From a bacterium (GTDB lineage Bacteria; Gemmatimonadota; Glassbacteria; GWA2-58-10), in NCBI GenBank assembly GCA_021372515.1, contig JAJFUG010000051.1, positions 1-62,741 on the forward strand: DNA of 62,741 bases. The letters run 5' to 3'. Below the pieces are notes generated by a model, which did no database searches, was not told the origin of the DNA, and worked only from the letters and a program-made list of their open reading frames with translations. How positions within the stretch are numbered: position 1 is the stretch's first letter; every line of letters begins with the position of its first letter. Position numbers and translations under genes: made by a program. Of this stretch, positions 1,186 through 26,931 are shown piece by piece.

Positions 1186-1706
1186 ATATCCGGCAGGCTG
1201 TTTTTCAGCCAGAGCACCTCGGCTCCCAGTTGGTAAAGACGGTACTCGCGGATGAGACGGTCCAGAAGCGGTTCGCCCGCGGGCGGCTCGGCGGCCAGCT
1301 CGGCCTCGTAGCCCGCCTTGAGCGCGGCGTAGCGCGCCGACAGCACCTGCGCGGCCCGTCCCGCAGGAAGGCTGGAGATGAAATTGAGCCCGGTTTCCAG
1401 CGGCTGGAGGCTGTTGGAGGTGTCGGTCAGAAGGGCCTCCACCTGGCGCGCCAGCTCGGCGCGGCCGGCGCGGGTCAGACGGTAGATCGAGCGCTCCGGG
1501 TTGCCGTCCACCGCCTCGTCCCGGATGTGCTCCAGCCAGCCCTGGGCGACAAACTTTTTCAGGCCGTAGTAGATCGAGCCGAAATTCAGGTCGGCGCGCT
1601 CGCCCAGCTCATCGGTCAGGCGCTTGCGGATCTCGTAGCCGTGCATCTGGCCCTCGGCCAGAAGGCCGAGGATGATGGCGCGGGTCATGCGGCTGGAGTT
1701 TTTCAT
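1131..1706 (-). CDS. PadR-family transcriptional regulator
   Basis: A 191-residue protein with an N-terminal PadR winged helix: MTRAIILGLL, then HGYEIRKRL, then the recognition region FGSIYYGLKKFVAQGWLE at about 43-60. The C-terminal half is the helical Vir-C-like dimerisation region seen in longer PadR proteins. PadR proteins are usually repressors that respond to small hydrophobic compounds and often control efflux or detoxification genes. No target is obvious here because the neighbours are divergent or convergent. Its 3' end overlaps the hydrolase gene tail to tail. An AT-rich patch (1730-1745, containing TATATAAATTT) just upstream could be its own operator. Confidence 0.88.
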   Translation of the reverse strand: MKNSSRMTRAIILGLLAEGQMHGYEIRKRLTDELGERADLNFGSIYYGLKKFVAQGWLEHIRDEAVDGNPERSIYRLTRAGRAELARQVEALLTDTSNSLQPLETGLNFISSLPAGRAAQVLSARYAALKAGYEAELAAEPPAGEPLLDRLIREYRLYQLGAEVLWLKNSLPDIQSAAPEAFSRTKSSRRS

Positions 1707-19886: not shown

Positions 19887-20327
19887 TCAGTCGTAAATCT
19901 TTTCCTCGTATTCCTCGATCACGGCCTTGGGCTCACATTCCGGCAGGCGGAACGTGATCGGCCCCTCGACCCGTCGGCCCAGGGCCAGGGCGCCGCTGGC
20001 CCGGCTGCCGGCGGCAATCGCCCCGCTGGCCCGTCCCAGGCTGAGCGCCACCGCACCGGAGGCCGCGGCAAGGCCCACCGAGATCGCCCCGGCGGCGAGG
20101 ACTCCCAAACTGACCGCTCCGGTGGCAATCACTCCCACCGCCAGCTTGCCCACCGCCACCACGCCGTAGGCCCGTTCCCCGACCGCGACCACCCCGCGGG
20201 CGGTCTTCGACGAAATGTGGAGCAGCGGCAAGCCGAAAACTTTCTTCCGGCTCACAAAATCGGCTTCCAGGTTTTCCAGCATCCAGCTGACTCCCTTACG
20301 GGCAGAACGGATCGATTTGACCATCAT
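19887..20327 (-). CDS. Small protein with Gly/Ala repeat solenoid
   Basis: 146 residues. A basic N-terminal helix (1-25) is followed by VFGLPLLHISS, then about 85 residues of near-periodic repeats in which glycine recurs every 5-6 residues (VVAVGERAYG, VVAVGKLAVG, VIATGAVSLG, VLAAGAISVG, LALGRRVEG). The tail is acidic. Regular G-x-x-A-x-G spacing suggests a narrow left-handed beta-solenoid or a glycine-zipper membrane array. Proteins starting FGLPLxHI with such repeats occur in diverse bacteria as uncharacterised proteins. No function can be assigned. Confidence 0.7.
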   Translation of the reverse strand: MMVKSIRSARKGVSWMLENLEADFVSRKKVFGLPLLHISSKTARGVVAVGERAYGVVAVGKLAVGVIATGAVSLGVLAAGAISVGLAAASGAVALSLGRASGAIAAGSRASGALALGRRVEGPITFRLPECEPKAVIEEYEEKIYD

Positions 20328-22023: not shown

Positions 22024-22139
22024 TACCACCTTTGGCAACATCCGCCGCGGGGGGCTGTTGAACGGGGGTGGGATGATAATTACACTCAATTGCAGTTAAC
22101 GGCCGGGGACACGGCCGCAAAACATAGAGGAGGTTGCCG

Positions 22140-22343
22140 ATGAACGGTCAGAGCCGTGACGAAGAGCAGAACCGTCTGCACCAGTGCGAATACGACCTGG
22201 AGAACAACTCCGGCGCCGGCCAGGACACGGGGGCCTACTCCAGCCCCTATATCTGCGCGGTCTGTGGGGCCGGCGCTCGCGACGCCTCGAATCTTTGCGC
22301 CCCGGAGCGCGGCGACAGCCGTGGGCGTGGGCTGGAGGACTGA
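22140..22343 (+). CDS. Small Cys-rich CxxCG...CAPE protein, copy 1
   Basis: 67 residues from an ATG seven bases after AGAGGAGG, one of the best ribosome sites in the window. The first half is acidic and polar; the core is Y-I-C-A-V-C-G (about 39-45), then eight residues, then L-C-A-P-E. This gives a possible three-cysteine metal site (CxxC plus a single Cys); one more Cys lies near residue 16. A paralogue with the same core is encoded 210 bases downstream. I know of similar short C-x-x-C-G...CAPE proteins in diverse bacteria but no function. Treat it as a putative metal-binding peptide. Confidence 0.72.
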   Translation: MNGQSRDEEQNRLHQCEYDLENNSGAGQDTGAYSSPYICAVCGAGARDASNLCAPERGDSRGRGLED

Positions 22344-22355
22344 AAGGCGCAAACA

Positions 22356-22516
22356 GGGGGCCGGCGCCCCGCGCCGTAGGGCGCGGGGGCGGCGGCCGCG
22401 CGCGGACGGAGACGGGCCGTATCGCGCAGGTCGAGTCAGTGCGGATGGACTGCCTTTCACCCAGGCTCCAGCCTCCCCGCGCGCGGCCGCCGGGGGCTTC
22501 GCCCCCGCCGGCCCCC
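22356..22516. repeat. 161-base multi-helix palindromic element between the two Cys-rich genes
   Basis: Four perfect helices nest here. The closing stem is GGGGGCCGGCG (22356-22366) with CGCCGGCCCCC (22506-22516). Hairpin A is CCCCGCGCC (22367-22375) with GGCGCGGGG (22380-22388). The long stem is GGCGGCCGCGCGCGG (22391-22405) with CCGCGCGCGGCCGCC (22477-22491), around a 71-base apex. Hairpin B is GGGGGC-TTC-GCCCCC (22492-22506), sharing one base with the closing stem. Together they form a multi-branch junction. No credible gene lies inside. It could be a mobile palindromic element, an attenuator, or a structured RNA linked to the small genes. Confidence 0.72.
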
Positions 22517-22553
22517 CCTGGCCGTGGCCTCAACCTTTTTACGGAGTCATATC

Positions 22554-22712
22554 ATGCGGCAGATAGTCAACATCAGCCACCGGGAGCACCCCTGCGACCC
22601 GGTCCCTGAGAGCGAAACAACACCCTCCGGCACACTTTACCAGTGCTGCCGCTGCGGCGCACAAGCTGCCTCGGAACAGTGCCTCTGCGCCCCGGAGGAA
22701 ACGTCAAAGTAA
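22554..22712 (+). CDS. Small Cys-rich CxxCG...CAPE protein, copy 2
   Basis: 52 residues; the ATG follows GGAG by seven bases. The core Y-Q-C-C-R-C-G-A-Q-A-A-S-E-Q-C-L-C-A-P-E matches copy 1 (CxxCG, then CAPE) with two extra cysteines. The N-terminal half (SHREHPCDPVPES) differs from copy 1, so only the metal-site-like core is conserved. An in-frame ATG at 22524 lacks a ribosome site. The DUF2461 gene follows 33 bases downstream. Confidence 0.72.
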   Translation: MRQIVNISHREHPCDPVPESETTPSGTLYQCCRCGAQAASEQCLCAPEETSK

Positions 22713-23559: not shown

Positions 23560-25143
23560 TCAGTCCCGGCTGAAAAGCTTGTCCAGGAACGGACGGTCCT
23601 GCGGGGTGGTGAACAGACTGACCACAACAATCAGCAGCAAGTTCAAGGGGAAAACCACGATAATCGGGTCGATCACCGACATCGGGAAATCGGCCAGCAC
23701 CGGCTGCCCGAAAAGCATCTGGCACACGCCCAGCGGCTTGGCCTCGCTGCCGTGGATGAACAGAGCGTAAAGCAGGCTGCCCAGCGAACCGAAAATCAGG
23801 CTGACTTTGGCCGCCGCTGGAGTCACCCTCCGCCAGTACAATCCCAGCGCATACAACGGCAGGAAACTCGCGGCGCACAGCCCGAAGAAAATCGCCGTGC
23901 CGCGCGCGATGATACTTTCAGGCAGCACGCTGCCCAGCCACATCACGATCACAATCCCGATCGAGATCGAGATGCGTGTCAGCTTGACCGTGTTGTCCTT
24001 CACCGTCTTGCGAGTTAGCTGCTGGTAAATGTCCCGGCTCATCGCCGTGCCCATGGCGTGTAACTGCCCGGACAGGGTGCTCATTGCCGCAGCCAGCAGA
24101 ATCAGCATGAAAATCGCGCCGAACCACTGCGGAAGAGCGCTGGAGATGAACAGCGGGATGATCTTGTCCACGTTGCCGCCGGCCGCCTCCTCCGCCAGCA
24201 CTCCCTGAGTGCGGAAGAAATAGACATTGGAGAGCGCCCCGACCACATAGGCCACACCGGGGATCATCAGGATGAACAGGCCACCCACCGGGACGGCGCG
24301 GTTCAGCTCGCGCTGGCTCTTGACGGTCATGAACCGCACGACAAGCTGCGGCTGGGCCAGTACGCCGATCCCCACGCCCAGGATGATCGTGGTGACCAGA
24401 ATATACCACCATTGCGAGAACGCCTTGGGCATCGCGGTCCAGCCCACATGGCCCATGGCGGCCAGTTTCTCCGGCACCTTGCCCGCCAGGTCGGTCAGGG
24501 CCTGGTGCGCCCCGCTGAACCCACCCAGGATGCTGTAGGTGTAGATGCCCAGGAACGCCATGCCGAAAAACATGATCGTCCCCTGCAGGGCATCCGTGTA
24601 CAGCACGCCCTTTAACCCGCCCGCGATCACATAGGCCGCCACGATCAGGGTGAAAATGAACAGCCCGACCATGTAGGGCAGCCCCATGTAGATCTCGATG
24701 TAGCGCGCCCCTCCGATCAACACCACTCCGGCGTACAGCGGCATGGCCAGAAAAATAAGCACTCCGCCGTAGACCTGGATGAACTTGCTGCCGTAGCGCT
24801 TGCCGATGAATTCCGGGAATGTGTGGGCATCCAGATGGTAGCCCATCATACGGGTCCGGTTGCCGAAAAAGACAAATGCGATGAAGATTCCAACGAAGAT
24901 ATTGAGGAACACCAGCCACAGAAGGCCCATGCCGAAACGCCCGGCCATGCCGCCGAACCCCACGATGGCCGAGGTGGAGATGAACGTGGCCCCGTAGGAC
25001 ATCGACATGATGAACGGGTGCGTGCTGCGCCCGGCCAGAAGGTAATCCGTGGCGCTGTTGGTCTTGCGGTAACCCAGGAAACCCAGGTAGCCCACTACCA
25101 GCAGATATACGATAACCACAAAGATGAGGAAGAAAAATGACAT
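23560..25143 (-). CDS. Sodium:solute symporter (SSS family), copy 1
   Basis: A 527-residue SSSF transporter with about thirteen membrane helices (LeuT-type fold). Family signatures are YLLAGRSTHPFIMSMSYGATFISTSAIVGFGG near residues 33-65 and GGLKGVLYTDALQGTIMF around 175-190. The conserved Ser/Thr residues for sodium binding fall in the TLSGQLHAMGTAMSRDIYQQL segment. It is strongly similar along its length to the next symporter. The substrate cannot be read from the sequence; the neighbourhood (PaaK, IorAB) suggests an aromatic or organic acid. It is the last gene of a long minus-strand run. Confidence 0.92.
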   Translation of the reverse strand: MSFFFLIFVVIVYLLVVGYLGFLGYRKTNSATDYLLAGRSTHPFIMSMSYGATFISTSAIVGFGGMAGRFGMGLLWLVFLNIFVGIFIAFVFFGNRTRMMGYHLDAHTFPEFIGKRYGSKFIQVYGGVLIFLAMPLYAGVVLIGGARYIEIYMGLPYMVGLFIFTLIVAAYVIAGGLKGVLYTDALQGTIMFFGMAFLGIYTYSILGGFSGAHQALTDLAGKVPEKLAAMGHVGWTAMPKAFSQWWYILVTTIILGVGIGVLAQPQLVVRFMTVKSQRELNRAVPVGGLFILMIPGVAYVVGALSNVYFFRTQGVLAEEAAGGNVDKIIPLFISSALPQWFGAIFMLILLAAAMSTLSGQLHAMGTAMSRDIYQQLTRKTVKDNTVKLTRISISIGIVIVMWLGSVLPESIIARGTAIFFGLCAASFLPLYALGLYWRRVTPAAAKVSLIFGSLGSLLYALFIHGSEAKPLGVCQMLFGQPVLADFPMSVIDPIIVVFPLNLLLIVVVSLFTTPQDRPFLDKLFSRD

Positions 25144-25275: not shown

Positions 25276-26844
25276 CTACCGCCGGAAAAGTCTCTCCACC
25301 TGCTGCGGGTCCATCTGACGGGTGAACAGGCTCACCAGCACCGTGACCAGAAGGCTTATCGGCAGAACGATTACAATCGGGTCCACCACGGCCAGGGACG
25401 GCACCAGGTTCGGCTTGCCGAACAGGGCCTGGCAGGCGCCCAGGGCCGCCGATTCCTTGGCGTGGATGAACAGGATGTAGAACACGCTGCCCAGGAAACC
25501 CACCACCAGACCGCTCTTGGCTCCCGCCGGAGTGGCTTTCTTCCAGTAGAGCCCCAGGGCGTACATCGGCAGGAAACTGGAGGCGCAGAGCCCGAAGAAA
25601 ATCGCCGTACCCGGGGCGATGATGCTGTCCGGGAGCACCTCGCCCAGAATCACTATGGTGATTATCCCCAGCAGAACCCCCAGACGCGCGATTATCAGAG
25701 TGTTGTCCTTTTTCGTCTTCGGGGTGAGTTGCTGGAAAATGTCGCGGCTGATCGCCGTGCCCATGGTGTGGAACTGGCTGGAGAGCGTGCTCATGGCCGC
25801 GGAAAGCAAGGTGAGCAGGAACAGCACCCCGAACCACTTGGGCAGGGCCTCCGAGATGAACAGCGGGATTATCGCATCGGCGTTGCCGCCCGCCGCGGCG
25901 ATGGAAATCATCCCCTGGGTGCGGAAAAAGAACACGTTGGACAGGCTGCCCACGATGAAAGCCACGCCGGTCATCATGAAAATGAAAATCCCGCCGGCGA
26001 ACACGGCCCGGTTCAGCTCGCGCTTGCTCTTGACTGTCATGAACCGCACCACAAGCTGCGGCTGGGCCAGCACCCCGATCCCAACACCCAGGACCAGCGT
26101 GCTCACCAGGTTCCACCACCAGGTGGACAGGAACCTGGGCATGGCGGTCCAGCCCATGTGCCCGGCGGCGGCCAGTTTCTCGGGGACTTTGTCCGCCAGG
26201 TCGGTCAGGGCCTGGTGCGCGCTGGTGAACCCGCCCAGGGAGATGTAGGTGAAGATGAACAGGATGCTCATCCCCACGAACATGATCGTGCCCTGGGCGG
26301 CATCCGTGTACATCACGCCCTTTAGCCCTCCGGCGATCACGTAGGCGGCGATTATCACCGCGCAGATCGCCAGGGCGGCGTCATAGGGGACGCCCATGTA
26401 GATCTCGATGAACTTGACCCCGCCGATCATCACCACTCCGGCGTACAGCGGCATGGCGATGAAAATGACCGCGCCGCTGAACACCTGGATGAACCGGCTG
26501 CCGTAGCGCTTGCCCATGAACTCGGGGAACGTGTGGGCATCCAGATGGTAGCCCATCACCCGGGTGCGGTTGCCGAACACCACGAAAGCGATGAAAATCC
26601 CCACCAGGATGTTGCAGAACGTGAGCCACAGCAGCCCCATGCCGAACACTCCGGCCGCGCCGCCGAAACCGACTATGGCCGAGGTGGAGATGAACGTGGC
26701 CCCGTAGGAGATGGCCATGACATAGGGATGGATCTGACGGCCGGCGACCAGGTAATCACTGGCGTTCGTGGTCTTGCGATAGCCCAGGAATCCCAGGTAA
26801 CCGACGAGCATGAGATAGAAAACGACAGCGATGATTGTCCACAT
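25276..26844 (-). CDS. Sodium:solute symporter (SSS family), copy 2
   Basis: About 522 residues from the ATG at 26844 (MWTIIAVVFYLML); a longer frame from 26919 adds 25 soluble residues that no SSS protein needs. It carries the same signatures as copy 1 (YLVAGRQIHPYVMAISYG, GGLKGVMYTDAAQGTIMF, TLSSQFHTMGTAISRDIFQQL). The two are tandem duplicates. A small accessory protein of the SSS type is encoded immediately upstream, so copy 2 is probably the principal transporter of the set. Confidence 0.92.
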   Translation of the reverse strand: MWTIIAVVFYLMLVGYLGFLGYRKTTNASDYLVAGRQIHPYVMAISYGATFISTSAIVGFGGAAGVFGMGLLWLTFCNILVGIFIAFVVFGNRTRVMGYHLDAHTFPEFMGKRYGSRFIQVFSGAVIFIAMPLYAGVVMIGGVKFIEIYMGVPYDAALAICAVIIAAYVIAGGLKGVMYTDAAQGTIMFVGMSILFIFTYISLGGFTSAHQALTDLADKVPEKLAAAGHMGWTAMPRFLSTWWWNLVSTLVLGVGIGVLAQPQLVVRFMTVKSKRELNRAVFAGGIFIFMMTGVAFIVGSLSNVFFFRTQGMISIAAAGGNADAIIPLFISEALPKWFGVLFLLTLLSAAMSTLSSQFHTMGTAISRDIFQQLTPKTKKDNTLIIARLGVLLGIITIVILGEVLPDSIIAPGTAIFFGLCASSFLPMYALGLYWKKATPAGAKSGLVVGFLGSVFYILFIHAKESAALGACQALFGKPNLVPSLAVVDPIVIVLPISLLVTVLVSLFTRQMDPQQVERLFRR

Positions 26845-26931
26845 CTGCCTGCGCTCCCATTTGTCGGTGGTGAAAAGCTCGGAGCCGCCCGCCCGCGGGC
26901 AGACGGCATCAACCGGCAAGTTGGCTCATGC

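Follow-up and report, generated by a model that had tools for sequence, protein, structure and literature searches.

A probably mobile, cloverleaf-folding DNA repeat between two paralogous cysteine-rich small genes of a Glassbacteria genome

The window, by which we mean the whole stretch of 62,741 nucleotides analyzed here, contains two genes for cysteine-rich micro-proteins, P1 and P2, which enclose a strongly structured spacer. This arrangement raises the question of whether the spacer belongs with the small genes, as a regulatory RNA or as part of a duplicated unit, or is an element of a different kind. The locus comprises the following features, with the closing stem, hairpins, and middle arm given as parts of the element:

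22140..22343, + strand: P1, 67-codon gene for a four-cysteine micro-protein (C16, C39xxC42, and C53), outside the element
22355..22518, + strand: cloverleaf repeat element in canonical orientation, 164 bp, 82% GC versus 64% GC for the window
22356..22366, + strand: 5' arm of the closing stem, GGGGGCCGGCG, which forms 11 bp with 22506-22516 and does not vary among the five copies
22367..22388, + strand: first hairpin, 9 bp (22367-22375/22380-22388), loop GTAG
22390..22405, + strand: 5' strand of the middle arm, pairing over 16 bp with 22477-22492
22406..22476, + strand: insert at the middle-arm tip, variable among copies
22477..22492, + strand: middle arm, 3' strand
22493..22505, + strand: third hairpin, GGGGC-TTC-GCCCC
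22506..22516, + strand: closing stem, 3' arm CGCCGGCCCCC
22554..22712, + strand: P2, 52-codon gene for a four-cysteine micro-protein, outside the element

The element starts 11 nt past the P1 stop codon, and its helices jointly close a four-way junction made of the closing stem and three arms, which confirms the branched structure proposed in a sequence-only reading of this locus. The minimum free energy of 22340-22545 is -128.4 kcal/mol (z -3.8), a stability equaled by none of 200 dinucleotide shuffles, and the element by itself reaches a z of -5.2. With respect to helix lengths, the earlier values of 11 and 9 bp were correct, while the helix given as 15 bp has 16 bp and the one given as 6 bp has 5 to 6 bp (22492-22497/22501-22506) according to the helix to which the shared end bases are assigned, since the last base of the 16-bp inner helix is also part of the 6-bp hairpin.

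We furthermore scanned the genome with a structure-only descriptor that specified topology alone, with minimum lengths of 8 bp for the closing stem, 5 bp for each of two hairpins, and 7 bp for the middle stem. In 446 kb, the copies of the element topped the scan with scores of 36 to 46, the window element scoring 40, compared with 29 for the best shuffled control. With looser loops, 843 kb, and doubled controls, the best control scored 34, and two AT-richer matches unrelated in sequence to the element scored 35 to 36; the fold-only scan covered about 0.84 of the 4.87 Mb of this genome. A structured stretch, L088:2408-2576 in contig C111, has 44% GC, a four-way score of 36, and a sequence unrelated to the element.

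BLAST, a covariance model, and a search with the end sequences agree on five copies in this genome, in contigs C51 (the window), C73, C55, C111, and C72. The copies are 84 to 164 bp long, the compact C72 copy being the one of 84 bp, and are palindromic throughout. The 11-mer GGGGGCCGGCG occurs 19 times genome-wide, and these occurrences include all ten element arms, which form five inverted pairs 60 to 140 bp apart. In a common orientation, the order is GGGGGCCGGCG, a hairpin CCGCG..CGCGG, a middle arm GGCCGGCCGCGCG..., a hairpin GGGCGC..GCGCCC, and CGCCGGCCCCC. At the end of the middle arm, the four long copies have mutually unrelated inserts of roughly 50 to 70 nt, whereas C72 has a 3-nt loop. 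When orientation is registered by arm type, C51, C73, and C55 lie one way and C111 and C72 the other; a naive alignment makes the hairpin bases of the latter two seem swapped, but the arm-type register shows that both are simply inverted. Early covariation counts had mixed both strands of the copies, and the compensatory change apparent in them, partly an orientation artifact, is not used as evidence here.

The element is dispersed to unrelated intergenic sites in both orientations. Going by gene names that, beyond the window, were read off translations, the C73 copy has an OsmC-like and a glycosidase-like gene as neighbors, the C55 copy a metallophosphatase-like and a hydrolase-like gene, and the C111 copy a dockerin-type and a LysE-type gene; the C72 copy is flanked by unassigned genes. 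No small gene of the P1/P2 type lies beside the C73, C55, C111, or C72 copy, and this dispersal beside unrelated genes argues against a link between element and small gene.

Presence and absence of the element differ between genera at four orthologous intergenic sites. At the C51 site, the sister genus represented by genome G001 keeps the gene pair with a P1-P2 spacer of 102 bp and no cloverleaf, a second observation against such a link. Both observations are among the outcomes that the sequence-only reading had itself named as refuting. At the C73 and C55 sites, the element is absent from the corresponding regions of G004 (L181 and L184, respectively), in each of which both flanking genes are conserved. 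The reverse case is an element in G001:C256 that is absent from the orthologous L116 region of G003. Insertion is the simpler reading of this pattern, although absence at an orthologous site could instead be due to loss.

The two small genes, proposed as paralogs of 67 and 52 codons, were confirmed as such, and Shine-Dalgarno sequences are plausible for both, with AGGAGG located 5' of P1 at about 22128-22133. The core CxxCG...CAPE is indeed common to the pair, but it is not all that they share, since one N-terminal cysteine and YxCxxCGxxA...LCAP are invariant across five sequences. Both orthologs in G001 are adjacent and in the same order as in the window (L018:1759-1944 and 1495-1656, minus strand). 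Identity is 44% between the P1 orthologs and 47% between the P2 orthologs (E 2e-7) versus about 29 to 33% between P1 and P2, which indicates that the P1/P2 duplication predates the genus split. Because the G001 orthologs pair P1 with P1 and P2 with P2, the gene duplication is also older than the element, and the suggestion that the element duplicated with the small gene is not supported. More generally, a single unit of element and small gene, whether the two were duplicated jointly or the element regulates P2, is very improbable: it is favored by the adjacency in the window and nothing else, while G001 has the gene pair without the element, G003 has a P1 ortholog with neither P2 nor the element (divergent from the same URO-D-like gene that is found near P1 in the window), and the four other copies adjoin no such gene.

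As for the products of these genes, the four conserved cysteines suggest that P1 and P2 probably encode zinc-binding peptides. Neither gene has a match in Pfam or NCBIfam, and convincing homologs are confined to the family among the 298 phylum genomes searched; outside it, P1/P2-like matches are weak, with E values of 1e-4 to 0.007, and the example from G056 sits in an unconvincing frame. A fold search with the predicted P1 structure, itself of low confidence (pLDDT 63), found nothing, and zinc-finger matches among solved structures are due to the CxxC motif and repeated fingers, so that they are a hint of zinc binding at most. In the surroundings, a protein with alternating hydrophobic/Gly repeats is kept near the small gene pair (window 19887-20327, minus strand, G000; L018:2171-2665, G001), and two transporter-like tandem paralogs, alike over their whole length, lie at 23560-25143 and 25276-26919 of the window (minus strand).

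Similar cloverleaves occur in sister genera. A fold-generalized model found G001:C256, G003:C23, G004:C7, and G005:C186, and the structure-only descriptor independently found G003:C11 and G003:C6; these copy numbers are lower bounds, and all family genomes are drafts. The sister-genus elements (z -5.3 to -10.8) have the topology of the window element and a similar GGG.CGGCG closing stem, with arms that are spelled differently. The closing stems GGGGGGCCGGCG, GGGGGGGCGGCG, GGGCGGGCGGCG, GGGGGCGGGCGGCG, GGCCGGCCGGCG, GGGCGGGCGGCAC, and GGGCGGCGGCG are alike, and GCGCAT..ATGCGC is present in several arms. Exactly three arms are found in all 11 elements from the own genome and the sister genera, and in the orientation drawn, 8 of the 11 have no unpaired base at the junction. 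The cloverleaf fold is retained while arm sequences differ among copies and genera. The copies of G003 have GCCGGTGC and GCGCGCA arms in common, which suggests that the element spread within that genome.

Since the sister elements were selected by fold, their pairing does not independently prove that elements of different genera are homologous; support for this homology comes from the closing-stem motif in common and from restriction to the family. The last model was trained with G004:C7 included, and G001:C256, G003:C23, and G005:C186 lay outside the training set. Elements outside the training set were thereby found in 3/5 sister genomes versus 0/23 genomes from elsewhere in the phylum at E<=0.02 (Fisher p 0.003), and the best E in these 23 controls, which belong to other families and were searched in the same way, was 0.23. 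This matched control was used because a run of model R3 on 249 genomes, with strict filters, had missed known family members. A sequence-led model, R1, detected the element in the own genome only among 249 phylum genomes. Two candidates located within open reading frames, G005:C81 and G002:C274, were kept out of the element family. Within the start of a sulfatase-like reading frame of G005, over the signal-peptide region, L066:1501-1588 forms a strong cloverleaf, and the GCGCTTACAGCGC of its third hairpin also occurs in G004:C7. Palindromic repeat dimers of lower GC content, of the ACACACCCCG... and CCCCCTT...AAGGGGG types, fit the four-way descriptor in G003 and G004 (L162:13819-13967, L119:12346-12494, L129:239-384, and L177:19802-19924).

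On these data, the spacer is probably a low-copy, non-autonomous, dispersed mobile DNA repeat of a REP/MITE-like kind that folds into a cloverleaf. That it might be a mobile structured element had already been offered in the sequence-only reading, and the five dispersed copies and the absence at orthologous sites make this the best interpretation. The element would spread by transposition in trans, most plausibly through an enzyme that recognizes its single strand in folded form, in the way that REP and IS200/IS605 ends are recognized by HUH (Y1) transposases. The window copy would have settled between two older paralogous small genes, and any effect there may be incidental, such as a partial insulation of P2 from P1 transcription. 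Several points count against a mobile repeat: only five copies are known in the own genome, neither a target-site duplication nor a mobilizing gene nor movement at the level of isolates was seen, loss might explain the absence at orthologous sites, the sister-genus elements were selected by fold, and it is another repeat that is found near the Y1-type genes of C159 and C164.

Alternatively, the spacer might act as a structured RNA or mRNA element, such as a stabilizer, a bidirectional terminator, or an attenuator, on adjoining transcripts including that of P2. The fold is very stable, and 4/5 copies in the own genome lie about 5 to 30 nt from a stop codon, as a terminator or stabilizer would; nevertheless, the copies take both orientations relative to transcription, a U-tract directly 3' of the element is absent, and orthologous genes do without the element. 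Moreover, G003:C6 and G005:C186 are located 5' of genes or within a divergent promoter region, and no scanned element reached the gathering score of any family in Rfam 15 (G003:C6 and G005:C81 left out). Across the 11 elements, G-U pairs are few, fold stability is about equal on either strand, and strand preference is absent, and the elements are located in 3', 5', and divergent regions in both orientations. As both strands fold and orientations and regions vary, a DNA repeat fits better than a transcript element, and we regard a role as RNA as unlikely. The narrower proposal of an RNA regulating the second small gene is likewise not supported, given the unrelated neighbors, the two orientations, the equal folding of both strands, and the orthologous gene pair that lacks the element.

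A binding site for a structure-specific protein, for instance, a nucleoid, replication, or recombination factor, would account for a four-way junction that is kept, usually without unpaired bases, though arms differ between genera. The sporadic occurrence at orthologous loci, the small number of copies, and the lack of a positional pattern testable on draft contigs make such a site rather improbable.

Returning to the mobile repeat, we compared it with known classes. Like REP, BIME, and REPIN sequences (GTAG- and CGTC-tagged families, PMC3733652; REPINs, PMC3116915), the element is short, intergenic, GC-rich, palindromic, dispersed, and non-coding, and consists of inverted units that are paired as dimers, with spacers that vary from 20 to 100 bp and a genus-specific sequence. 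Its occurrence in both orientations is likewise a REP property. Unlike in these sequences, the closing stem is long and there is a third arm, resulting in a flush four-way junction, and the copy number is low. According to PMC3733652, REP families are marked by a GTAG or CGTC tag, and their dimers have spacers of variable length. Neither tag is found at the ends of any of the five copies, which are G5-6/C5-7, and the sole GTAG is the first-hairpin loop of the window copy. The own genome has two Y1-type genes with features of REP-associated transposases, in C159 and C164, of which the latter reaches 47 bits with the NCBIfam RAYT model, short of the cut-off of 80; both adjoin or contain a GTAGGGGC repeat that is distinct from the cloverleaf element, and no RAYT gene flanked by the cloverleaf element was found in this genome. 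The element thus appears to work like a REP or MITE but, as the tag and RAYT tests failed, stands outside the tagged REP families.

With MITEs and enterobacterial RU/ERIC-type small mobile sequences (PMC10969869, PMC2759123), the element shares non-autonomy, a size of 80 to 170 bp, intergenic location, and terminal inverted repeats, perfect inverted ends of 11 to 12 bp being present in 5/5 copies. It differs from them in that the inverted repeat structure spans the whole element. By inspection, there is no direct repeat at the copy ends that would represent a target-site duplication. All other occurrences of the end sequence in the own genome, whose draft assembly comprises 222 contigs, stand alone and lack the arms of the element; a parent insertion sequence with the same ends was not found there, and no mobilizing gene was identified for the element. 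Folded single strands are known as substrates of recombinases or replicases from integron attC sites and from T- or cruciform-shaped terminal DNA. The element resembles these as a branched palindrome in single-stranded form, but it is away from replicon ends and without cassettes.

In wider searches, 84,980 species genomes were scanned with a pattern for the element's third-hairpin side, which gave 7 matches, none of them a cloverleaf; viral contigs gave no match, and the gene-spacer-gene block was unmatched in plasmids. None of the titles and abstracts listed by literature searches describes a cloverleaf repeat of this kind. A tentative and rather doubtful extension of our interpretation is a class of mobile repeats defined by fold and not by sequence, in which each genus has its own arm sequences but pairing and the closed junction persist. 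Such a class would imply a mobilizing or binding enzyme that reads the shape of the junction, and, as palindromic repeats are usually recognized via sequence families and tags, ordinary repeat finders would not detect a repeat that keeps its fold only. Should the cloverleaf be the recognized feature, it would provide a concrete substrate for finding the enzyme. The locus also advises caution in that a strongly structured intergenic spacer can be an inserted repeat and not a regulatory RNA.

The GTAGGGGC repeat is itself a classical GTAG-tagged repeat of two hairpins, GTAGGGGC...GCCCCTAC, found at L064:1375-1440 and 1683-1746 and at L065:1463-1515. It occurs both next to and within the two Y1/RAYT-like genes, and in L065 it is in frame within the coding sequence.
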